Positions 5,912-17,552 of a stretch of 64,000 nt of DNA are shown piece after piece. Position 1 is the stretch's first letter. Each line of letters starts with the position of its first letter. This DNA comes from Salinibacter altiplanensis (GTDB taxonomy: Bacteria; Bacteroidota; Rhodothermia; Rhodothermales; Salinibacteraceae), in contig NZ_NCQY01000030.1 in the NCBI RefSeq assembly GCF_002894645.1, positions 258,394 through 322,393 of the forward strand, given 5' to 3'. The translations under genes and the position numbers were made by a program. The notes under the pieces are model-generated. The model saw only the letters and a list, made by a program, of their open reading frames with translations, was not told the DNA's origin and did no database searches.

Positions 5912-7810
5912 ATGAGCGAGATTCTCGACGACAAGCCCGAGGTCCTCGTCCAGAAGCTCGACGCCCTCCCCACCGACCCGGGCGTCTACAAATTTCTGGA
6001 CGACGAGGACTCCGTCCTTTACGTGGGCAAAGCCAAGAACCTGCGCACCCGGGTCCGCACCTATTTCCAGAGCAGCCGCCAGCGCGACGGCCGGATCGAG
6101 GTGATGGTGCAGAAGGCCGCCGACGTGGACATCATCGTGACAGACACGGAGGCGGAGGCGCTCATTCTAGAGAACAACCAGATCAAGGAGCTGCAGCCCC
6201 GCTACAACGTCAACCTGCGGGATGACAAGACCTACCCCTACATCTGCATCAAAAACGAGCGCTTCCCCCGCGTCTTCAAGACGCGCACCGTGAAGCAGGA
6301 CGGGTCCGAGTACTTCGGCCCCTACGCGGACGTGTCCAAGATGAACGCGATGATGGACGCGGTCCGGTCGGTCTTTCAGCTGCGGACCTGCTCGCTCGAC
6401 CTCAGCGAAGAGAAGATCGAGGCCGGCAAGTACGACGTGTGCCTGCAGCACCACATCGACAACTGCAAGGCCCCCTGCGTGGGCAAGCAGTCCGAGGCGG
6501 ACTACAGGGAGACGATCGAGCAGGTCAAGAAGCTGCTCAACGGCCAGACGCAGTCACTGATCGACCTGCTGACGGACGAGATGCAGGCGCAGTCCGACCG
6601 ACACAACTTCGAGGAGGCCGCCCGCCTGCGGGACCAGATCAAGGCCCTCAAGGACTACTCTCAGCAGCAGAAGGTCGTCAGCCAGGACTTTGCCGACCGC
6701 GACGTGTTCGCCCTTCACGTCGAACGGGACGAGGACATCGGCTGCGGCGTACTGTTTCAGGTGCGGGAGGGCAAGATGATCGGGAAGCGGCACAAGTTTC
6801 TCCGCTCGGTGGAGGAGCGGACGAACGCGGAGCTCATTCTTTCTCTCGTCGAGAACTACTACACCGAGGCAAACTTCTACCCGGAAGAGGTCCTCCTCTC
6901 CCACGACCCGAACGACCACCCGGCCCAAGACACCCACGCCCTCGAAGAACTGCTGCGCCGGAAGCAGGGCCACCAGGTGCCAATCAAGGTTCCCCAGCGC
7001 GGCGAGAAGGCCAGCCTCGTCCGCATGGCCGCGTCCAACGCGAAGCTGCAGGTCGGCGAGTGGAAGACGCAGCAGATGAAGCGGGAGCGGAACCGGATTC
7101 CGGAAAGCATTAAGGCCCTGGGCGAGGCGCTCAACATGGACGAGCCGCCGCGCCGCGTCGACGGCATCGACGTGTCGCACCACGGCGGCAAGGAAACGGT
7201 GGCGTCCTGCGTCGTCTTCACCGACGCGACGCCCCGCAAGAGCGACTACCGCACCTACAAGATCCGCTCGACCGAGGAGGGCACCCCCGACGACTACAAG
7301 GCGATGCGCGAGGTGGTGCGGCGCCGCTACCGGCGTATGGTGGAGGAGGACGGCCCCTGGCCCGACCTCGTGGTCATTGACGGCGGGAAGGGCCAACTCT
7401 CCAGTGCTGTCGAGATGCTAAAGGAGGTCGGGGCCTTCGATCGGTTCCCTGTCATCGGCCTCGCAAAGCGCCTCGAAGAGGTCTACCGGCCCGGCGACTC
7501 CGACCCGGTCTTCCTGGCGAAGGACAGCCCGGCCCTGCAGTTGCTGCAGAAGGTGCGGGACGAGGCCCACCGATTCGCCGTCACCTACCAGCGCAAGCGC
7601 CGCAAGAAGAAAACCCTGCAGTCCGAACTGCTCGACATCCACGGCATCGGCCCGAAGACGGCCAAGACGCTGCTCGGGGAATTCGGGTCCGTGGCGAAGG
7701 TAAAAGACGCCGACGAGGACGCACTGGCCGAGGTCGTGGGGTCCGCAAAAGCCAAAACGGTGGCCGACTACTATGCCCCCGAGACGCCGGCCGCTGCAGA
7801 CACAAAGTAG
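5912..7810 (+). CDS. uvrC: Excinuclease ABC subunit C
   Basis: Nuclease of UvrABC nucleotide excision repair that makes both incisions around a lesion. The 632 residues show the complete family order. The N-terminal GIY-YIG domain has PGVYKFLDD and LYVGKAKNLRTRV (about residues 18-55). A UVR segment for UvrB contact lies near residues 205-240. The RNase H-like endonuclease domain has GIDVSHHGGKETV and VVIDGGKGQL (about 415-500). The C-terminal helix-hairpin-helix pair contains IHGIGPKTAKTLL. The start ATG at 5912 precedes MSEILDDKPE. It is divergent from the toxin/antitoxin operon and apparently monocistronic. Confidence 0.97.
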   Translation: MSEILDDKPEVLVQKLDALPTDPGVYKFLDDEDSVLYVGKAKNLRTRVRTYFQSSRQRDGRIEVMVQKAADVDIIVTDTEAEALILENNQIKELQPRYNVNLRDDKTYPYICIKNERFPRVFKTRTVKQDGSEYFGPYADVSKMNAMMDAVRSVFQLRTCSLDLSEEKIEAGKYDVCLQHHIDNCKAPCVGKQSEADYRETIEQVKKLLNGQTQSLIDLLTDEMQAQSDRHNFEEAARLRDQIKALKDYSQQQKVVSQDFADRDVFALHVERDEDIGCGVLFQVREGKMIGKRHKFLRSVEERTNAELILSLVENYYTEANFYPEEVLLSHDPNDHPAQDTHALEELLRRKQGHQVPIKVPQRGEKASLVRMAASNAKLQVGEWKTQQMKRERNRIPESIKALGEALNMDEPPRRVDGIDVSHHGGKETVASCVVFTDATPRKSDYRTYKIRSTEEGTPDDYKAMREVVRRRYRRMVEEDGPWPDLVVIDGGKGQLSSAVEMLKEVGAFDRFPVIGLAKRLEEVYRPGDSDPVFLAKDSPALQLLQKVRDEAHRFAVTYQRKRRKKKTLQSELLDIHGIGPKTAKTLLGEFGSVAKVKDADEDALAEVVGSAKAKTVADYYAPETPAAADTK

Positions 7811-7886
7811 AGTTGCCGACGAAAACCATCTGCAATAACGGCAACAAGTCCGTCCAACTGTTCTCCCTCAGCTCTCCTGAACTGAT

Positions 7887-8219
7887 ATGCCGCCCTCTGA
7901 TCCCGGATCGCTGCTCAATCGGCTCGTCGACGAACACTGGGACACCGCAGCCCGCCATGCCTGGCGCCAGTACGACCAGCGTGGGCGTGGGGCAATCGTT
8001 TTTACCGTCCAGGCCGACGCCGCCCCCGAGGAGCGCACCCCCCTCAAGTACCTCACCTTCAACGACGACTCCGCCGCCGAGGACGGGGCCTTTGCGAAGC
8101 TCCACGAACTGGTGCGATTGTACGACCCTGAACAGCAGGTCGTGGCCGCGGCCGTACTGCCCGACGAGCACACTGTCTTCGAGGTATACGAGCAGGAGCC
8201 ACTTCCCCCTCACGCCTAG
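7887..8219 (+). CDS. Small acidic protein of unknown function
   Basis: 110 residues starting MPPSDPGSLL. It is acidic, without signal peptide or membrane helix, and appears to alternate beta strands (GAIVFTVQA, VVAAAVLPDEH, VFEVYEQ) with short helices, suggesting a small alpha/beta fold. It follows uvrC by 76 bases on the same strand and converges with the thioredoxin-like gene. I do not recognise the family. Confidence 0.65.
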   Translation: MPPSDPGSLLNRLVDEHWDTAARHAWRQYDQRGRGAIVFTVQADAAPEERTPLKYLTFNDDSAAEDGAFAKLHELVRLYDPEQQVVAAAVLPDEHTVFEVYEQEPLPPHA

Positions 8220-8337
8220 ACGGAGCCCCAGAGCACCATCGATCTCAAGCGCGGACTCAAGTGCGGAACCAACGGGATCGCCTCCCATCCCGCGGCAAGG
8301 ACAGACAGAGAGAGAACCGTCTCCGGACGGATCGAAA

Positions 8338-8946
8338 TCAGCCCGCCGCAACGGCCTGAAGCCGTTCTGCGAGCTCTGCGTCGGTGTCTTTCCATCCTCC
8401 TCCCTCGTAGTGCTCCAGAAACTCGCCGATCAGCTCCATCTTGTCGTCGTACTGCTCCGCCAGCGTCTCAAACCGGCGGGCCGCTGCGTCCGGGCGTGGG
8501 CCCCATGTGAAGAGCTCCCCCCCGTCGGTTGAAAACACGACAAGCTTCGGGATGCTACGGCTCCCGTCTGTGAGGTACTCGTCCATGATGTCCAGATTCT
8601 CATCCCGCGGCAGGATGCGGAGCGAGACCTGATCGGACAGGGCCGCCGCCTCGGCGATCACAGGGAGCAGAAACGCCGAGTCGCCACACCACGGCTCGGT
8701 GAGCACCGTCCAGAGCTGCGGTTCCTCGATGGCCTCAACGGCTGCGCGCAGCCCCTCGGACGGGGCGTACGACACATGTACCTGGGCCTGTCGGTCCCAG
8801 TTGTATTCCAGATAGTGACGCTGGCGCCGCTCTTCCGGACCGGCATCGTCGGCGAGCGGCGTGTCGAGCTGTTGGCTCCACGCTTCTCGGTAGTCCTCGT
8901 AGTGAAGCCCGTCGTGGAGACGGCCTTCTTCGAAGAAGTTAGGCAT
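8338..8946 (-). CDS. Thioredoxin-fold protein with a single active-site cysteine
   Basis: 202 residues resembling the bacterial thioredoxin_9 group. An alpha-helical N-terminal extension is followed by a thioredoxin fold whose active-site segment reads TEPWCGDSAF. The second cysteine of a classical CxxC is replaced by Ser, so it would work as a monothiol protein or have lost redox function. The cis-Pro region (SRSIPKLVVF) is kept. There is no signal peptide, so it is cytosolic. It is a single gene on the minus strand. Confidence 0.82.
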   Translation of the reverse strand: MPNFFEEGRLHDGLHYEDYREAWSQQLDTPLADDAGPEERRQRHYLEYNWDRQAQVHVSYAPSEGLRAAVEAIEEPQLWTVLTEPWCGDSAFLLPVIAEAAALSDQVSLRILPRDENLDIMDEYLTDGSRSIPKLVVFSTDGGELFTWGPRPDAAARRFETLAEQYDDKMELIGEFLEHYEGGGWKDTDAELAERLQAVAAG

Positions 8947-9027
8947 TGATCGAGGGACGAAACGTTCGGGGAAGCAGTGAACAGGAGTGGCATTCTTCAG
9001 CGACCAGGCGGCTCGACCGGAGCGCCG

Positions 9028-9777
9028 CTACATCCAGTTGCGCAGCCTCGCCGCGAGATAGCCGCCCACCGCGAGGCCCGCCACCGTATAGATCGACTGC
9101 CGGAGGGCCGAAGACTCGTCGTCTCCCGAAAGGGAATCTTGCGCGGACTCGGCCTGCTCCTCGATGACCGCCCCTGCGTCCTCTACGAGCTGCCCTCCAA
9201 GCTCTTGGGCCTCATCGGAGGCCTCCGCCGTTGCGTGCCGGACCGTTTCTCCAGCCTCAGCCCCAACCCGCTGGGCGTGCTCAGAGGCCCGGCGGACTAG
9301 GTCTTCGGCGTGTTCGCGGATGCCTTCGCCCCGCTTCTGCGCCTCCTCCACGAGGCGATGACGGGTCTCTTCGGCCTGCTTGCGAATGCCGTCGCCGGAG
9401 CGCGCTGCCCGATCGGAAAGGCCTTCTCCCACCCCGGTCGCCACACGCTGCGCATCATCGGCCAGGCGGCGGAGCCGGCGACGGGCCTGCTCCGACAGGC
9501 TGGGCGACGGGCGCCGGGTAGCGACGGCCACCCCGTATCCGGCGGCCGCCGCCAGCAGTGAAGACAGGGTCGCCGCGAGGAACGGGCGTCGCTGAAGCCA
9601 GCCCTCGGCTTGCTTCCTCGCCTGCTGGGCCTTCAAGCGCGTTACCTCCGCCCGTAGTTCGCCGAGAAGTTCAGTCAGCTCTTGTGTCCTGTCACCCTCT
9701 GTCGACGCGTCCGATGGCGAATCTGGAGCTTCCTCCGACGCCTCAGTGGAGTCGGGTTCAAGATCGTGTTGGCTCAT
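9028..9777 (-). CDS. Membrane protein with long amphipathic helical region, unknown role
   Basis: 249 residues from the ATG at 9777 (MSQHDLEPDS); a TTG at 9798 would add seven. The order is: acidic N-terminus, a short coiled coil (TELLGELRAEVTRLKAQQ), a hydrophobic segment (FLAATLSSLLAAAAGYGVAVA), about 110 residues of Ala/Glu/Arg-rich helix with repeated RAxEHAxR-like patterns, and a C-terminal hydrophobic segment (VAGLAVGGYLAARL). The helical stretch resembles apolipoprotein-, phasin- or YtxH-like proteins only in composition. It lies 133 bases downstream of another small single-helix membrane protein on the same strand. Confidence 0.7.
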   Translation of the reverse strand: MSQHDLEPDSTEASEEAPDSPSDASTEGDRTQELTELLGELRAEVTRLKAQQARKQAEGWLQRRPFLAATLSSLLAAAAGYGVAVATRRPSPSLSEQARRRLRRLADDAQRVATGVGEGLSDRAARSGDGIRKQAEETRHRLVEEAQKRGEGIREHAEDLVRRASEHAQRVGAEAGETVRHATAEASDEAQELGGQLVEDAGAVIEEQAESAQDSLSGDDESSALRQSIYTVAGLAVGGYLAARLRNWM

Positions 9778-9910
9778 GGTATGGGAAAGGGTCAACAAAT
9801 GGGGGTGAGGAGAATTGAAGGCCGCCGAGGCCGAGAGCTCATACCCACGTCCAGAAACGGCGGCCCTACGTCGCCGATCGGCAGCGAATAAGTCCCGCCC
9901 TGCCGTACAG

Positions 9911-10147
9911 TTAGTCTCGAAGCATCACCCCCACGAACACGCCGACGCCGAACGCCCCAATCATCGTGGCCTTCTGATGCTGCTGCACCCACGAACGGGC
10001 CATGTCCTTCGCGAGAGAGGACGACACTCCATCGGGCATTGTCACCGGATCCTCCTGATCCCAGGATGGAGGATCAGTGTTCTCGAAGGGAGAACCCGAA
10101 GACAGCGATGGATCGCCGGATGCAGGGTCGGACGAAGGATCAGCCAT
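9911..10147 (-). CDS. Small protein with C-terminal membrane helix, unknown
   Basis: 78 residues. A Ser/Pro/Asp-rich disordered N-terminus is followed by an amphipathic segment (AKDMARSWVQQHQ) and one C-terminal helix (ATMIGAFGVGVFVGVML) ending in Arg-Asp. The layout is that of a tail-anchored membrane protein. It is the first gene of a minus-strand pair with the amphipathic membrane protein at 9028-9777. No family recognised. Confidence 0.68.
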   Translation of the reverse strand: MADPSSDPASGDPSLSSGSPFENTDPPSWDQEDPVTMPDGVSSSLAKDMARSWVQQHQKATMIGAFGVGVFVGVMLRD

Positions 10148-10369
10148 GGGGACGTAACCTTTTGATCGAGACGGAGTTAAAGCGAAGCAGATTTAGCATT
10201 TTCTGAGTAGCCGGGTGGGAACCAAGGCCCCGGTGCCGGCTTTGGCCCAGGGCATTTTTCTTGGTCGAACCGCCCTCGGTTCGTGTCGTAGGAGAGGACC
10301 GCGCTGGGATTCACGTTCGACCTTCTTTGTACGGCGTCGCTATTCGGATTTGACTCGCACACCAAAAAA

Positions 10370-13300
10370 ATGATTCCCTACTGGCGTCGATTTCTTCTCC
10401 TCTGCGTGCTCGGGGGAGCGGCTCTTTCTCCTGTTTGGGCTCAGCAGGAGGCCTCTCGTCCAGGGGACGCATTCGGGTCGGCGGTGGAATTGTACCAACA
10501 GCAGCTGTATCCGGACGCCGCCGCAGCGTTCTCCGCGTTTCGGCGGGGCCACCCCACACACGCTGCGGCTCCCCAGGCCCTTTACCTGGAGGCCCAGGCT
10601 GCCCTTGCCCGGGGAGACGACGAAGGCACGCGACGTTTGCTCAACCGGCTTCAGCACGACTACCCGTCGCACCCACGGGCCCAGACCGCCCGGCTCAGGC
10701 TGGCGCAGTACTACCTGGATCAGGGGTCCTCAGACCGGGCCACGTCTCAACTCCAGACCATCGCAACAGCTCCGAACCGCCCGGGCGAGGGCGCCCGGGC
10801 CCTCTACCTCCTCGGCCGAACGGAACAGGATCAGGGCAACCCCAACGCCGCCCTTCCCTACTTCAAGCAGGTCTACTCGCGCTACCCAGACGCCGAGCTG
10901 GCCCCAGCAGCGCTCTACGCCCAGGGCGTAACTCAGGTGCGTCTGGAGCGGTACGACCGGGCTACGGACTCATTCGAGCGCCTCGGCGAGCAATTTCCGA
11001 CTTCTCCCTTTGCGGAGAACCTGGGCACCGTCCTGGGCGAGGTGTACTACCGCCTTGGTCAGTACGAGAATGCGACCACGGAGCTCCAGCGCCGCCTTCC
11101 GGACCTGACGGGCTCTGATCGTGCTCGCACCCTGTTCCTCCTTGGCGAAACGTACAGCGCCCTCGGCCGGGGCGAGGACGCCACGACTCAGTACCGGGTG
11201 ATTCTGGAGGAGGCCCCAGACAGCCCCTACGCCCTCCCGGCCCGCTACGGCCTCGCCCGGCAACACTACTCTGCGGGGCGCTACGAGGCCGCCGCCGAGG
11301 CCTTCGCGACAGTGCGCTCGAAGGAGGACCCACTGGCCGTCAAGGCCACGTACTACGAGGCGGCAAGTCGGGCCCTCATGGGACGCAAAGCGGACGCCCT
11401 GAAGCTATACCGCACCTTTCTCGACCGGACCAGCGGGGGCCGGCTAGCAACCGCGGCTCAGTACGAAGTCGGGCTCCTCCACTACCGGGAAGAGCGGTAC
11501 GACCGGGCCGCGACGGCCTTTCGCTCCGTTGCCCAGCAGGCATCGTCGGAGGGACCACGCGGCAAGGCGTTCTACTGGCTCGGCAATGCCTCCCTGGCAA
11601 CCAACAGGCTGGACCCGGCCCTGGATGCGTACACCGAGGCGATTGATCGGGGGGCTGCGCCCGCAGCCGTGACGGCCAAAGTGCGGTTTCGGAAGGCGTG
11701 GTCTCTCTATCAGGGCGGCCGGTACGCCGATGCGGGCTCAGAATTTCAGGCCCTTGCCGAGGCGCACCCGGAAACAACTCGGGGCCAGGAGGCGCTCTTT
11801 TGGGGCGGCGACACGTTCTACCAGCAGAACCAATTTGGCGAGGCCCGCCGCCTGTTTCAGCAATACCTCGACACGAACCCAGACACTCCCCAGCGGGCCG
11901 GCGCCCAGTATGCCCTTGCCTGGACACACTTCAAGCAACGCCGCTTCGGGCCCGCGGCCCAGTCGTTTCGCCGGTTCCTGGACACGTACGAGGGAGACTC
12001 CACATCCGAGGTTCCGTACCAGCAGGATGCCCGCCTTCGACTCGCAGACTGCTACTTTGCCCTCAAGCAATACGACGACGCCCGTGCAGCGTACGACCGC
12101 GTCAGCGGAAAGGGCACCGAGTACGCGCTTTATCAGGGCGGCCGGGCCCTGTACTACGCAGGACGACCGGCCGATGCCCTTGACCGCCTCCGGCGATTTG
12201 TCGAGGACAGTCCAGACAGCCCATTGCGGCCCGATGCCCTGTACCGCATCGGGGACATCCACTTTCAGGAGCAGCGCTACGGCGCGGCGCGGGCGGCATT
12301 CACGCAACTGCTCGACGAACACCCCGAGCACGCTCGTGCCGCCGAGGCCCAATACGCCATCGGGGACACCCGCTACAATGCGGGTGAGATGGAGCGCGCC
12401 GTGGAGGCCTACCGCACCGTCCTGGAGGCCTATCCCGAAAGCCCCTCCGCCCGCGAAGCGGCCTCCAGTCTCTTTTTCGCCCTCAACGCCGCGGGCCAGC
12501 AGGACCGGGCCGACGACCTGATCGCGGCGATTGCGGATCAAGTGCCGGACGCCAACCTGGAAGACCGGCTGCGCTACCAGCGGGCCCGAGCCGCGTACCA
12601 GCGCGGAGACTCGAAGCGGGCGCTACGCCTCTTCCGCACGTTCGTGCGCACCGCCTCCACCCAGGCGCTCATCCCCGACGCGTACTACTACCTCGGGCTT
12701 CTGTACGCCGACACCGACCGGTACGACGAGGCCAAAAACTACCTGCAGCAGCTCGTCGAGCAGTACCCCGACAGCGAGTACATTCCGGAGGGCAGCCTCC
12801 GCCTCGGGGAGATCCACCTCGATCAGGGGGCGCATGAGCAGGCCGTAGACGCCTACCGCACCGCCGCCGAACACAACCAGACCCGGGACGACCTCCGCGC
12901 CCAGGCTCGGTACGGCCAGAGCCAGGCCCTCCTTCGACTCGGCCGGACCAGCGCGGCGGACACTCTTTTGTCTCAAACCTTAGACGCCAAGCCCCAGGGG
13001 CCCCTCCAAAATGCCGCCCGGCTCGGGCTGGGGCGCGTCCGCAACGAGCAGGGCCGCACCGACGAGGCACTCGCCCTTTACCGGCGTGTCGTTCGCGCAT
13101 CGGACGGTGAACCCGGCGCCGAGGCCCTGTACCGCCTCGGGAAACTGCTTCGGCGCCAGGGAGACGCGCAGACGGCCATCCGAGAACTGGAACGCATGCC
13201 GTCCCTCTTTGCAGGGCACCCTGAATGGGAGGCCCGCGCCCTGCTCGAACAGGCCCGGGCGTACCGCGACCGGGGCGAGACCGGACGGGCCGTTCAGCTG

Positions 13301-13381
13301 TACGACGAAGTACAGAAAGCATACGGCGGAACCCCGTTTGCCCAGACGGCCCAGGACGAGCAACAGGCGATCGAGTCGTAG
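10370..13381 (+). CDS. Large exported tetratricopeptide-repeat protein
   Basis: 1003 residues. Residues 1-24 (MIPYWRRFLLLCVLGGAALSPVWA) form a clear signal peptide ending in an AxA-like site. The rest is a nearly continuous TPR solenoid of the YbgF/BamD-like kind, with repeated A-x-Y-x-L-G and YPDSP-type turns, so a periplasmic scaffold is likely. It heads a same-strand cluster: 47 bases to an outer-membrane beta-barrel gene, then HU-like, HU/SPOR, exbB and exbD genes. Start at the ATG that begins the signal peptide. Role in the cluster is inferred: it may bridge inner- and outer-membrane components. Confidence 0.9.
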   Translation: MIPYWRRFLLLCVLGGAALSPVWAQQEASRPGDAFGSAVELYQQQLYPDAAAAFSAFRRGHPTHAAAPQALYLEAQAALARGDDEGTRRLLNRLQHDYPSHPRAQTARLRLAQYYLDQGSSDRATSQLQTIATAPNRPGEGARALYLLGRTEQDQGNPNAALPYFKQVYSRYPDAELAPAALYAQGVTQVRLERYDRATDSFERLGEQFPTSPFAENLGTVLGEVYYRLGQYENATTELQRRLPDLTGSDRARTLFLLGETYSALGRGEDATTQYRVILEEAPDSPYALPARYGLARQHYSAGRYEAAAEAFATVRSKEDPLAVKATYYEAASRALMGRKADALKLYRTFLDRTSGGRLATAAQYEVGLLHYREERYDRAATAFRSVAQQASSEGPRGKAFYWLGNASLATNRLDPALDAYTEAIDRGAAPAAVTAKVRFRKAWSLYQGGRYADAGSEFQALAEAHPETTRGQEALFWGGDTFYQQNQFGEARRLFQQYLDTNPDTPQRAGAQYALAWTHFKQRRFGPAAQSFRRFLDTYEGDSTSEVPYQQDARLRLADCYFALKQYDDARAAYDRVSGKGTEYALYQGGRALYYAGRPADALDRLRRFVEDSPDSPLRPDALYRIGDIHFQEQRYGAARAAFTQLLDEHPEHARAAEAQYAIGDTRYNAGEMERAVEAYRTVLEAYPESPSAREAASSLFFALNAAGQQDRADDLIAAIADQVPDANLEDRLRYQRARAAYQRGDSKRALRLFRTFVRTASTQALIPDAYYYLGLLYADTDRYDEAKNYLQQLVEQYPDSEYIPEGSLRLGEIHLDQGAHEQAVDAYRTAAEHNQTRDDLRAQARYGQSQALLRLGRTSAADTLLSQTLDAKPQGPLQNAARLGLGRVRNEQGRTDEALALYRRVVRASDGEPGAEALYRLGKLLRRQGDAQTAIRELERMPSLFAGHPEWEARALLEQARAYRDRGETGRAVQLYDEVQKAYGGTPFAQTAQDEQQAIES

Positions 13382-13428
13382 CGGCCCATCGTGTCTCGCC
13401 CCCGTCCCCTCACCCACTGATTTCCCAA

Positions 13429-15144
13429 ATGCCCTCGTCTAATCACGGGCTCATGTCCATGCTTTTTCGCTTCTCCGGCCTCTGGCTTGTCGGAATGGGG
13501 GTTCTGGCAATGGCCCCGGTCACGTACGGCCAGCAGGCCGATACGACACAGCTTCCCGAGATCGCCCCACGGGAGATCGAAATTCGGGGCGAGCGCGAAA
13601 TTGCGCTCCCCTCTCTGGAGCGACAGCCCTTGAGCGGCTTCACATCCCCCCCCACACTCCCAACGGTGCCGACAGGCCACCGTCCGTACGTCGGATCGCA
13701 GGACCAATCGTTAGACAGACTTCCGGAGAGCCTGCCGGTCCCCGAAACGGTGTCGTCGTCGCTGGCCCCAACGCCCGATCCGATCCAGGGCTTCTTGGAG
13801 GGCGGCAGCGGACGATACTTTAGCCGCTTCTTTGAAGGACGGGTCGGGGGGGCGCTGTCCTCCCACAGCCGGCTCTCTGTGCACGGCGCGTACACGGGAA
13901 CGGAAGCAGATCCAAACGACGACGTGGCGGAGGCCGCCGTGCGCCTCCAGCACACGAAAGATCCCCTTCGGATTGACGCAACGGCACACGGCAATGTACA
14001 GCGGTACACCCTCTACGGCGCCTCCCCCGTAGGCCCAGCCGCCTCCGAGGCCCCCGATCGGGAGAGCCACTCGGCCGGCGGCGCAGTACAGGTCCGGCAC
14101 ACGGACCGAGCCGCCCCGGCCCGAGCGAAGGTGCGCTACGACCAGACCGAGTACACGTCTTTTCTCGATGCCACGTCCACGGAGCAATCCTACAGCCAGC
14201 AGCAGCTGGGCCTCAGTGGGGAAGCGACGGTTCCACTTCCGTACCAGCCCCACGTGCAGGCCCGGTTCCGGCGGTCGTGGCTGGGAGAGGACCCGGAGAC
14301 CAATACAGCCTTTGATGTCGAGGCCAGCGGCACGGTCTCGTACTCCCCGACCGATCCTGTGTCGCTCGACGTCGGGGCCGCCGTGCTTGCCTTCGACACG
14401 CCCGCACAGCCGGGCCAGTCGTCCCCCGGGACCGCCGATGCGAGCTTCGTCGCGCCGGTCGTGGACGCCGGCTGGCGGGTCGCCGAGGGAACGCGCCTCT
14501 TCCTTCGCAATCGCCCCCGGCTCGGCGACACGGGCCTGGACCCGCTCTACGCGACCAACCCGTATGCCCGCCACGCCCCCTCTCTTCGTCCCACCCTCGA
14601 GACCACCCATGCCGAGGGCGGCCTCGCCCTCACCCGCGGCCTTGTGCGCATCGTGGCCGCGGCGGAATACCGCTACGCACCGACCTACCGGTTCTTCAGT
14701 CTTGCCAACGAGGGCCTGTACCGGGTTCAGTACGACCCCGCCCGCATTCTAGAGGGGCGCGGCAAGGTGGCGCTGCAAGGAGTTGAGGGCGTCCAGGCCT
14801 CACTGGGCCTGTCGGTCCGGGACGGGACGCTCCCCGACGTGGACAGCCCGATCCCGAACTTTGCCTCCGTCACGGCGGATGCCCTCGTCACCGTCTCGTT
14901 TGCGGGGGGCGACGGCTTTGTAAAGGCCCATGGGACATTTCGTGGCCCGCGCGACGCCGGGCTCCGCCGCGCCGTTCGCCTTGACCCGTACGTCTCTGTA
15001 GACCTCGAAGGCTCGTACGCCGTGGGATCGGACCTCGAACTGGTGGCCCGTGCCGAACAGCTCGCGCCGGACGCCCCGACGATGTGGGCAAACTACCCGC
15101 AGCCCGTCGCCGAACTTTCAATGGGTGTGCGGCTCCGGTGGTGA
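13429..15144 (+). CDS. Outer-membrane beta-barrel protein, function unknown
   Basis: 571 residues from the ATG at 13429. The signal peptide spans the N-terminal 36 or so residues (hydrophobic GLWLVGMGVLAMAPV, then TYGQQA). A Pro-rich linker follows, then many alternating-polarity strands ending in VRLRW, the C-terminal aromatic residue expected of a Bam substrate. There is no TonB-dependent plug domain that I can see, so it is a porin-like or structural barrel. It follows the TPR gene by 47 bases. An upstream in-frame start at 13225 is rejected because it would overlap the TPR gene and add residues of frame-shadow composition. Confidence 0.8.
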   Translation: MPSSNHGLMSMLFRFSGLWLVGMGVLAMAPVTYGQQADTTQLPEIAPREIEIRGEREIALPSLERQPLSGFTSPPTLPTVPTGHRPYVGSQDQSLDRLPESLPVPETVSSSLAPTPDPIQGFLEGGSGRYFSRFFEGRVGGALSSHSRLSVHGAYTGTEADPNDDVAEAAVRLQHTKDPLRIDATAHGNVQRYTLYGASPVGPAASEAPDRESHSAGGAVQVRHTDRAAPARAKVRYDQTEYTSFLDATSTEQSYSQQQLGLSGEATVPLPYQPHVQARFRRSWLGEDPETNTAFDVEASGTVSYSPTDPVSLDVGAAVLAFDTPAQPGQSSPGTADASFVAPVVDAGWRVAEGTRLFLRNRPRLGDTGLDPLYATNPYARHAPSLRPTLETTHAEGGLALTRGLVRIVAAAEYRYAPTYRFFSLANEGLYRVQYDPARILEGRGKVALQGVEGVQASLGLSVRDGTLPDVDSPIPNFASVTADALVTVSFAGGDGFVKAHGTFRGPRDAGLRRAVRLDPYVSVDLEGSYAVGSDLELVARAEQLAPDAPTMWANYPQPVAELSMGVRLRW

Positions 15145-15187
15145 CCCGGGCGGCACACGTGGAGTCCAGGTGAGATCGGTCCCCGCA

Positions 15188-15218
15188 TTTTATGTTGTGC
15201 CCCACAAATGTATTTTTA
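15188..15218 (+). promoter_or_regulatory. Possible internal promoter with palindromic operator
   Basis: TATTTTTA at 15211-15218 resembles the Bacteroidota -7 element (TAnnTTTG). A TTTT at 15188-15191 lies 19 bases upstream, close to the expected spacing of the -33 element. The spacer holds the palindrome TTGTG (15195-15199) CCC CACAA (15203-15207), a possible regulator site. The region is AT-rich compared with its surroundings and sits in the only gap over 100 bases in the cluster, just before the HU-like gene. Confidence 0.35.
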
Positions 15219-15261
15219 GACTGCCATTCGAAGCCGTCCCACTCATTCCCCGACGCTCGTC

Positions 15262-15468
15262 ATGGAGTCCCCATCGGCCGAAGACATCATCGAGGCGTTT
15301 ACCGACGTCGTCCAGGATCAATTAGGCACCGGAAACGCCGTAGAGGTGCCGGGCCTGGGCACGTTCTCCGCTGAACACCGCCCGAGCGAGGTACACGAGG
15401 AGGAGGGCGTCCGTCGCCTTGCGCCGCCGCGGAACCAAGTCGTCTTTGCCCCCGATCCGGACGCGTGA
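15262..15468 (+). CDS. Mini HU-like protein
   Basis: 68 residues. The helix-turn-strand pattern (ADDIIEAF-type helices, then VEVPGLGTFSAEHRP and LAPPRNQVVFAPD) matches the HU/IHF fold: GLGTF is the conserved beta-turn and the last segment corresponds to the strand before the C-terminal helix. The long DNA-contacting arms rich in Lys/Arg are missing or very short, and the protein is acidic overall. It lies 24 bases before the HU/SPOR gene and may be its partner or a dimerisation module. Ordinary DNA bending by it is doubtful. Confidence 0.7.
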   Translation: MESPSAEDIIEAFTDVVQDQLGTGNAVEVPGLGTFSAEHRPSEVHEEEGVRRLAPPRNQVVFAPDPDA

Positions 15469-15492
15469 CCCCGTCACCATTTGCAGAGCCCC

Positions 15493-16341
15493 ATGCCCAA
15501 ATCCATCATCCCTCTTCTCGCGGAGCGGCTCGACATTTCCGAGGAGCAGGTCCAGCCCCTGCTGAGCACCATGGTAGAGGAGCTCCGCCAGCGCGCCGAG
15601 TCCGATGGCGTCCAGCTGTCCGGGCTCGGGACGTTTCGGGAGGAGGACGGCACCCTTGCCTTTCGTCCCGCCCCTACCTTGCGTCGACGCGTCAACCGGC
15701 CGTACGAGGGCTTGTCTGCCGAGTCCCTCTCCCCCGCCACCGAGCGCGAGGCCTCTCCGGCCCAGGGCACGCCCGAGAAGGCGACAAATTCTGAGCCCTC
15801 CTCGGCGCCGGCGGCCGATCCGGAAGCGCCGTCCACACAGGATCGCTCGCCGGCTCGGCCCGACGCCAACGACCGGTCTGTAGATTCCTTCGTCCTCATC
15901 AGCCTCATCCTTGCGGGCCTCTTCTTGCTAGGGGCGGGCTGGTTCGTCATCAACCAGACCAACCTATGGGGCCCTACTCAAGACGCAGCGCCCCCCACGG
16001 CCACTGAGACGCCGCCCGACCAGGCTGAGTCCCCTTCTACGACCGGTTCCGCATCCGACCCACCGCCGGACGCTCCTCCGAGCGCAGACACAGAGGCGTC
16101 GGACACGCGGGACTGGACCATCGTAGTCGCCTCCAGCTCGTCCCGCGGCAGTGCCCAGGAGGCCGCCGACACGTACGGATCCCAGTTCGATTCGGTCGCT
16201 GTGGTGTCCGGAACGGTGGACGACGCAACGTGGTACCGCGTGACGATTGGGCGCTATCCCTCCGAGTCGGCCGCCGAACGCGTCCTCGACGAACGGACGG
16301 AGGCCCTTCCCCCAGACGCCTGGACCCACCAACTCGAATAA
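15493..16341 (+). CDS. HU-like domain, transmembrane helix and SPOR domain fusion
   Basis: 282 residues from the ATG at 15493. Residues 1-75 form an HU-like domain (helices, then GVQLSGLGTFREED). Residues 76-130 are a Pro/Glu-rich linker. Residues 132-154 are a membrane helix. A second Pro/Thr/Asp-rich linker leads to a SPOR domain at 207-282 (DWTIVVASS, WYRVTIGRYPS). SPOR domains bind denuded septal peptidoglycan, so the protein should place HU in the cytosol and SPOR at the cell wall. Such HU-TM-SPOR proteins are a known Bacteroidota architecture. It sits between the mini HU-like gene and exbB. Confidence 0.88.
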   Translation: MPKSIIPLLAERLDISEEQVQPLLSTMVEELRQRAESDGVQLSGLGTFREEDGTLAFRPAPTLRRRVNRPYEGLSAESLSPATEREASPAQGTPEKATNSEPSSAPAADPEAPSTQDRSPARPDANDRSVDSFVLISLILAGLFLLGAGWFVINQTNLWGPTQDAAPPTATETPPDQAESPSTTGSASDPPPDAPPSADTEASDTRDWTIVVASSSSRGSAQEAADTYGSQFDSVAVVSGTVDDATWYRVTIGRYPSESAAERVLDERTEALPPDAWTHQLE

Positions 16342-16370
16342 GACTCCCCCATCGCTTCCACTTCGCCCCT

Positions 16371-17108
16371 GTGCCTTCTGCTCTGCTGACCGCCGCTACC
16401 GCTCTCCCTCAACAGGTGGACACCACGGCCCTCGACACCACCCAGACCGCGTCGGGCCAGGCCTCCTCCCTCCTCGACATTCTGGTGCTGGGGGGATGGG
16501 TAATGATTCCGCTGGTGTTGCTCTCCCTGCTGACCATCTACCTGCTGGTGGAGCGACTTATCACAATCCGGCAGGCCGCCTCCGACCCGGAAGCCATCAC
16601 CGATCGGGTGCGCGAGTTTGTGCGAAACGGCAACGTCGAGGCCGGCATTCAGTACTGCGAAGAGAAAGACGTCCCCATTACCCGAATTCTTCAGCAGGGC
16701 CTCGAGCGCCTGGGGCGGCCGATCTCCGAAATTCAAGATGCCGTGCAGGCCGCTGGCAAGCACGAAACTTTTGATCTGGAAAAGCGGACAAACCTGCTTG
16801 CCAGCATCGCCGGCATTGCCCCCATGCTCGGCTTCTTCGGCACGGTGGTCGGCATGATTCGGGCGTTCCAGCAGATTCAAAACCTACAGGGCAATGTGAA
16901 TCCCTCCGTGTTGGCGGGGGGCATCTGGGAGGCCCTTATCACGACCGCGGCGGGCCTGCTCGTTGGCATCCTGGCGCTGTTCTCCTACAACTACCTCATG
17001 GGGCGCATCCGGCGCCTCTCCAACGACATGGAGCGCTCCGCCACCGACTTCATCGACCTTCTGCAGGAGCCGGTCTCGCCGGAGCGATCCGAGGAGTTGC
17101 CGTCGTAG
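16371..17108 (+). CDS. ExbB/TolQ/MotA-type proton channel subunit
   Basis: Inner-membrane subunit of a proton-motive-force-driven motor. 245 residues from the GTG at 16371. Three membrane segments are visible: near residues 30-57 (LVLGGWVMIPLVLLSLLTIY), about 140-165 (IAGIAPMLGFFGTVVGMI, the conserved channel helix), and about 180-205. The start is chosen because it follows the HU/SPOR stop by 29 bases and removes a frame-shadow extension that would overlap that gene. The partner ExbD follows 42 bases downstream. No tonB or tolA lies in the cluster, so the output component is unknown. Confidence 0.88.
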   Translation: MPSALLTAATALPQQVDTTALDTTQTASGQASSLLDILVLGGWVMIPLVLLSLLTIYLLVERLITIRQAASDPEAITDRVREFVRNGNVEAGIQYCEEKDVPITRILQQGLERLGRPISEIQDAVQAAGKHETFDLEKRTNLLASIAGIAPMLGFFGTVVGMIRAFQQIQNLQGNVNPSVLAGGIWEALITTAAGLLVGILALFSYNYLMGRIRRLSNDMERSATDFIDLLQEPVSPERSEELPS

Positions 17109-17150
17109 CCCCTGCACTGCCCCTCTCGCTGACGAACCGCCCGCCCCGCC

Positions 17151-17552
17151 ATGCCGCTCGACTTTTCTCCGTCCCGCGAGCCCATGACGACCTTCAGCCT
17201 CGCGGGCATGACGGACGTCGTCTTGCTGCTCCTGATCTTCTTCTTGCTCACCTCCAGCTTCATCCCCCAGATGGGCATTCAGGTCACCCTGCCCCAGGTG
17301 GACAGCGCCTCGCCCGTGTCGGAGCAGTCGATCACCGTCTCCCTGACGAAGGACGGCTCCTACTACGTGGCCGGCTCCCCTGTGACGCAGGCGCGCCTGG
17401 TCAGTGAGCTCCGCACCCTCCGGACCGATCAGCAGTTTCTCATCATGCGGGCCGACCAGGAGGCCCGCATCGGCCAGTTTGCCACGGTCGCCTCGGCGGC
17501 CCAGGCCCTGAACATGCGCGTGCTGGTGGCGACAGAGCGGGCGGGGCAGTAG
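17151..17552 (+). CDS. ExbD/TolR-type motor subunit
   Basis: 133 residues. One N-terminal membrane helix carries the essential protonatable Asp (Asp22 in GMTDVVLLLLIFFLL). A periplasmic ExbD/TolR domain follows (VTLPQVDSAS, ITVSLTKDGSYYV, RADQEARIGQF). With the upstream ExbB it should form a complete stator. It is the last gene of the cluster and converges with the comM-like gene. Which ExbD/TolR subtype it is cannot be decided by eye. Confidence 0.9.
   Translation: MPLDFSPSREPMTTFSLAGMTDVVLLLLIFFLLTSSFIPQMGIQVTLPQVDSASPVSEQSITVSLTKDGSYYVAGSPVTQARLVSELRTLRTDQQFLIMRADQEARIGQFATVASAAQALNMRVLVATERAGQ

Follow-up and report, generated by a model that had tools for sequence, protein, structure and literature searches.

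What does an ExbB/ExbD motor drive when no TonB gene lies beside it? The question is raised by a six-gene cluster of Salinibacter altiplanensis at positions 10370-17552 of the window (the whole stretch of DNA that was analysed, 64,000 nucleotides long), where genes for an exported TPR protein, an outer-membrane barrel, a small HU-like protein, an HU/TM/SPOR protein, ExbB and ExbD follow one another on the plus strand (Table 1). The first-pass annotation had read this locus as a proton-driven device without a TonB, in which the HU/SPOR protein serves as the arm and ties nucleoid, cell wall and outer membrane together. Its gene content and positions are confirmed: all six genes lie on the same strand, the intergenic gaps are short (24-117 bases), and the gene after exbD, which is comM/yifB-like, is on the opposite strand. 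It was also right about the window itself, since no TonB gene is found within these 64 kb and the TonB_C matches of the genome lie only elsewhere. A scan of the locus for promoters and terminators was uninformative. In both the TPR protein and the barrel the signal peptide is followed by a glutamine, which is usual in exported Bacteroidota proteins according to PMC10653852.

Table 1. The six genes of the cluster, with positions in the window and the matches on which each assignment rests.
Feature	Position	Strand	Evidence
Exported TPR protein, 1003 aa	10370..13381	+	Pfam TPR families, NCBIfam YbgF/BamD-type repeats; kept upstream of barrel
Outer-membrane barrel, 571 aa	13429..15144	+	AlphaFold2 model; Foldseek best match BtuB
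Small HU-like protein, 68 aa	15262..15468	+	PF00216 E 5.8e-8; HU-CCDC81 families
HU/TM/SPOR protein, 282 aa	15493..16341	+	SPOR E 1.3e-9; AF2 model; SPOR structures top fold matches
ExbB/TolQ motor subunit (type A, ExbB-A)	16371..17108	+	PF01618 3e-33
ExbD/TolR motor subunit	17151..17552	+	PF02472 5e-22

The neighbourhood recurs across Bacteroidota and neighbouring phyla, as the first-pass annotation had suggested checking. The recurrent order is TPR, barrel, (small HU), HU/SPOR, exbB, exbD and tonB, and the series TPR-barrel-(HU/SPOR)-exbB-exbD-tonB is found across Bacteroidota, Ignavibacteria, KSB1 and Latescibacterota. Within the class (Rhodothermia), the barrel and ExbB genes lie no more than 6 kb apart in 51 of 52 genomes, and the gene order is far from chance. 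ExbB/ExbD are thus consistently associated with the barrel, and in many clusters with HU/SPOR as well. The TPR gene of Balneolales lies away from the barrel, and in some Bacteroidia clusters the next gene after tonB is, judging by its sequence, probably folC. Two TPR-barrel-SPOR-TonB clusters without exbB/exbD (L097 in G131 and L099 in G079) have TonBs that lack the S/T-x3-H motif, and a third locus (L098 in G100, 6418-12704) carries TPR-barrel-HU-HU/SPOR with no ExbB, ExbD or TonB adjoining. Our literature search found nothing specific on the cluster, on plug-less receptors or on HU-SPOR proteins with ExbB.

The missing arm is found by comparing these neighbourhoods. In those retrieved from 20 genomes of the class, the gene directly after exbD encodes a TonB wherever the genome falls outside Rhodothermales; these linked TonBs have a transmembrane helix, a Pro/Glu-rich linker and a TonB C-terminal domain. 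Across 60 genomes of the class, 30/30 of those outside Rhodothermales encode this protein (TonB-A) directly 3' of exbD, at a distance of 421-637 bases from ExbB; within that order it is unlinked in 22/22. Where enough downstream sequence was available outside Rhodothermales, barrel-bearing clusters include TonB in 12/12 cases from Balneolales and 24/24 from elsewhere. We therefore consider TonB as probably linked to the cluster ancestrally and relocated in Rhodothermales, an inference from its distribution. The linkage is not a quirk of Balneolales: the tonB-linked arrangement occurs also in Bacteroidia, Ignavibacteria, KSB1, Calditrichota and Latescibacterota.

A search profile built from the linked TonBs, with this genome's own protein left out, places the S. 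altiplanensis ortholog on another contig (G000:C4:52506-53216), next to pyruvate-dehydrogenase-type genes, with 168 bits versus less than 8 for the four other TonBs of the genome. The reading of the cluster as one without any TonB was rejected on this ground, the more so as a TonB consistently accompanies the exbB/exbD pair elsewhere, which is one of the observations that the first-pass annotation had named as refuting its reading. The motor-coupling motif S/T-x3-H is present in TonB-A alone among the genome's five TonBs (T12-x3-H16), and we rejected the other four as motor partners on both score and motif. The motif was counted in at least 31 of 60 TonBs, a lower bound given that the gene caller mis-starts or misses genes (e.g. 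at L057 and L125). TonB-A is itself a weak TonB_C match (29.7 bits against PF03544, with a cut-off of 24.6) and scores alike on TonB and TolA models. Four Balneolales loci (L063, L064, L066 and L067) have a TonB-A beside ExbB/ExbD that lacks the histidine of the coupling motif, and the motor pair remains there. In another protein of the genome (G000:C29:493649-495418; L015:5650-7419), two TonB C-terminal domains are joined to an M56-like membrane peptidase of the BlaR1 type; by motif, this protein is no motor partner. More generally, the relocated TonB-A is a warning that an ExbB/ExbD pair taken for an ‘orphan’ may be served by a TonB encoded at a distance.

The motor residues of ExbB-A and ExbD are conserved: T158 of ExbB-A is present in 19/19 sequences, T192 is found in 17/19 and replaced by Ser in the remaining two, and the motor aspartate D22 of ExbD occurs in 19/19. 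In the ExbB tree, ExbB-A and the Bacteroidota cluster ExbBs are set apart from the genome's second, tandem-exbD ExbB with 100/100 support, and a flavobacterial exbB adjoining tonB groups with ExbB-A. The closest solved structures to ExbB-A are TolQ and then ExbB; likewise, the TolQ model scores above the ExbB model, and far below the TolQ cut-off. The genome's second motor (G000:C16:388668-390994; L012:6669-8995) comprises an ExbB-type protein, a small membrane protein and two ExbD genes, with no adjoining TonB, and is kept across the class beside a 3-isopropylmalate-dehydrogenase-like gene. Genes for ExbD-like proteins, TPR lipoproteins, a 944-aa exported protein and a 536-aa ExbB-like protein that carries a signal peptide form one run at G000:C29:83829-94793 (L014:830-11794); this third motor-like set looks like another envelope machine.

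Could the HU/SPOR protein nevertheless be the driven arm, as first proposed? Its gene immediately precedes exbB in most Ignavibacteria clusters and in almost every Rhodothermia cluster, and the 282-aa protein has an HU-like domain, one transmembrane helix (~132-159) and a SPOR domain. However, that helix lacks S/T-x3-H in 15/15 members of the class and in 48/49 others. HU/SPOR is missing from barrel clusters in KSB1, Calditrichota, Latescibacterota and three unassigned bacteria; it is also kept where barrel, ExbB and TonB have been lost (see below). We rejected it as the motor arm on motif, on separability and on the existence of TonB-A. The nucleoid end of the device is unsupported as well, judging from the models. 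The HU domain of the 282-aa protein, a weak assignment if taken alone, matches PF18175 and PF00216 below their cut-offs and HU is not among its top fold matches; the predicted structure places a two-residue beta turn between strands 46-51 and 54-59, at the site of the DNA-binding arm. In the small HU-like protein, the R-N-P arm motif is absent in 13/13 sequences. A motor that drives HU/SPOR to tie nucleoid, wall and outer membrane is therefore very improbable, and the protein is better seen as an accessory, wall-binding (peptidoglycan) membrane protein than as an arm or a nucleoid tether.

The closest known relatives of HU/SPOR are the HU-CCDC81/SPOR proteins of Bacteroidota, which Burroughs et al. 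(2017, Cell Cycle) are said to have predicted to act in chromosome partition. They share the two HU-like domains, transmembrane helix and SPOR domain; unlike in those proteins, the first HU here is a separate 68-aa gene, and HU/SPOR is further connected with the barrel and with ExbB/ExbD/TonB. Within the class, a profile of the small HU-like protein finds the N-terminal part of fused HU-HU-TM-SPOR proteins (E ~1e-9 to 1e-10). The small HU and the HU domain of HU/SPOR are the counterparts of the two successive HU domains that other species carry in a single HU-HU-TM-SPOR protein.

If TonB-A is the arm, the barrel is the most likely candidate for what it pulls. The AlphaFold2 model, built with 16 class sequences, has 22 strands (mean pLDDT 76.6), and Foldseek groups it with BtuB and other TonB-dependent receptors (best match BtuB, E 8e-18). 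At the sequence level, TbpA and PfeA also match its C-terminal strands. Unlike in those receptors, the place of the plug is taken by about 90 N-terminal residues (26-116) that are modelled as disordered. Moreover, the barrel has no Pfam match to the Plug domain (PF07715) and is not among the genome's 37 Plug matches, and the members tested reach the cut-off of no Pfam or NCBIfam family. On the strength of its model, the barrel is thus a predicted TonB-receptor-fold protein, undescribed so far, that has lost the usual plug. A 22-strand pore of the modelled kind would need a closing element, and none is apparent in the cluster data.

The N-terminal tail of the barrel holds a conserved stretch, LPEIAPREIEIRGE...LERQPLSGF, and after the signal peptide the family shares the motif LPEI.P.(D/E)IEIR(G/S) in Rhodothermia and LP(D/E)FVITG in Ignavibacteria. 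A TonB-box-like motif was found in 64 of 86 N-termini of the barrel family, versus 0.9 expected in shuffles. The motif resembles a TonB box or the start of a plug, and binding of TonB-A at this site is plausible.

Losses of these genes may tell whether the motor belongs to the barrel or to the cell at large. Barrel and TonB-A have identical presence in the class (53 of 60 genomes) and ExbB-A is found in 52. Seven genomes, all of one family (f7), lack the three together, so the joint-loss pattern comes mainly from one lineage and may reflect few events. At the f7 locus (L069, L101) a fused HU-HU-TM-SPOR gene stays at the syntenic place, no longer flanked by TPR, barrel, exbB and exbD; HU/SPOR is therefore separable from the module. 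A further genome (f6, G020) has TPR, barrel and HU/SPOR, and ExbB-A is absent. In genomes of family f21 (e.g. G104, G115 and G141) there are HU/SPOR matches and no ExbB-A, and the barrel search returns generic receptor C-terminus matches only; possibly the module was lost here once more, independently, and HU/SPOR was retained.

These data bear on the simplest alternative, which is that the pair is an ordinary TonB energiser for many nutrient receptors and that TPR, barrel and HU/SPOR adjoin it by inherited operon structure, with no common task. The 37 plugged receptors of S. altiplanensis need energy from some source, flavobacterial orthologs of ExbB-A are encoded in exbB-exbD-(exbD-)tonB operons that lack the barrel, and TonB systems of the flavobacterium Riemerella serve iron and hemin uptake (PMC4446302). 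Yet each of the seven genomes without ExbB-A and TonB-A retains 33-42 plugged receptors and 4-10 TonB_C matches. They also have the second ExbB, which was the sole close ExbB found there and is accompanied by two ExbDs in the cases inspected. The module is therefore not needed in f7 for ordinary TonB-dependent import and, from this pattern, looks dedicated to the plug-less barrel. Together with the identical presence of barrel and TonB-A across 60 genomes, this makes a purely general energiser rather doubtful, although by analogy with the flavobacterial operons the same motor may also power import.

If not import, what is the module for? One answer is a Bacteroidota substitute for Tol-Pal, with TonB-A as TolA, the TPR protein as CpoB/TolB, and barrel and SPOR as outer-membrane and wall anchors at division. 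SPOR domains in general mark division sites. ExbB-A is slightly nearer TolQ than ExbB, and TonB-A scores about equally on the TonB and TolA models. The TPR protein has a signal peptide ending ...SPVWA|QQ, no lipobox and ~25-30 TPR repeats, and throughout Bacteroidota and adjacent phyla it is found paired with the barrel; its repeats score on the YbgF/CpoB model, as most TPR_6-type repeats would. In addition, passages of a 2025 survey report no tol-pal loci in Bacteroidetes and propose PorE instead, and they do not mention the ExbB/barrel cluster (PMC12204202). On the other hand, the whole-family loss suggests dispensability, and SPOR is missing in deep lineages. We regard the Tol-Pal substitute as a tentative possibility.

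Another answer is secretion or assembly, where TonB-A would open the plug-less barrel to move a macromolecule, with the TPR protein as carrier. Pairs of TPR protein and barrel export polysaccharides in other systems, which offers a precedent. The TonB receptor Oar of Myxococcus is needed for protease secretion (PMC6434023). In the loci examined, however, no constant cargo gene or polysaccharide synthase adjoins the cluster, and a secretion device seems unlikely.

The reading we favour, with a probability of about 0.6, is that of a specialised Ton/Tol-type envelope machine, most of it encoded at this locus and made of ExbB/ExbD, the distant TonB-A, a plug-less barrel, a TPR protein and HU/SPOR as an accessory; since a Tol-like role or an export role would count as a variant of this reading, its probability overlaps with theirs. 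ExbB/ExbD would use the proton-motive force to drive TonB-A, which would engage and pull the N-terminal tail of the outer-membrane barrel. In the periplasm, the large TPR protein would bind the barrel as its partner, and HU/SPOR, where present, would act as a peptidoglycan-binding accessory and periplasmic partner. The purpose would be envelope upkeep or macromolecule movement rather than ordinary nutrient import. The weak TonB_C match of TonB-A, the loss of the histidine in part of Balneolales, the flavobacterial operons that lack the barrel, a joint loss seen mainly in one family and a pore with no apparent closing element argue against this assignment. A bolder version, which we consider possible though speculative, is an ancient, undescribed trans-envelope machine of Bacteroidota, Ignavibacteria, KSB1, Calditrichota and Latescibacterota, in which a dedicated ExbB-ExbD-TonB pulls a plug-less, receptor-fold barrel with a giant TPR partner as the Bacteroidota counterpart of Tol-Pal. 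What most deserves further work is the barrel, with its receptor fold, its lack of a plug and its dedicated motor. As the motor is widely conserved and has its own TonB, and the barrel is unfit as a normal receptor, a few gene deletions could put the question to the test.

Set beside known systems, the proposed machine resembles the Ton system in its motor Thr/Asp residues, in the S/T-x3-H motif and C-terminal domain of TonB-A and in the 22-strand receptor fold predicted for the barrel. It departs from that system in its modelled barrel, which is plug-less, in an operon that also encodes HU/SPOR and a 1003-aa TPR protein, and in the unlinked tonB of Rhodothermales. With Tol-Pal it shares a TPR protein that scores on YbgF/CpoB and a peptidoglycan-binding partner nearby, and its motor leans slightly towards TolQ. 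Neither TolB nor Pal is among the genes at the cluster locus; unlike in Tol-Pal, the outer-membrane partner encoded in the cluster is an integral barrel and the transducer has a TonB-type C-terminus.
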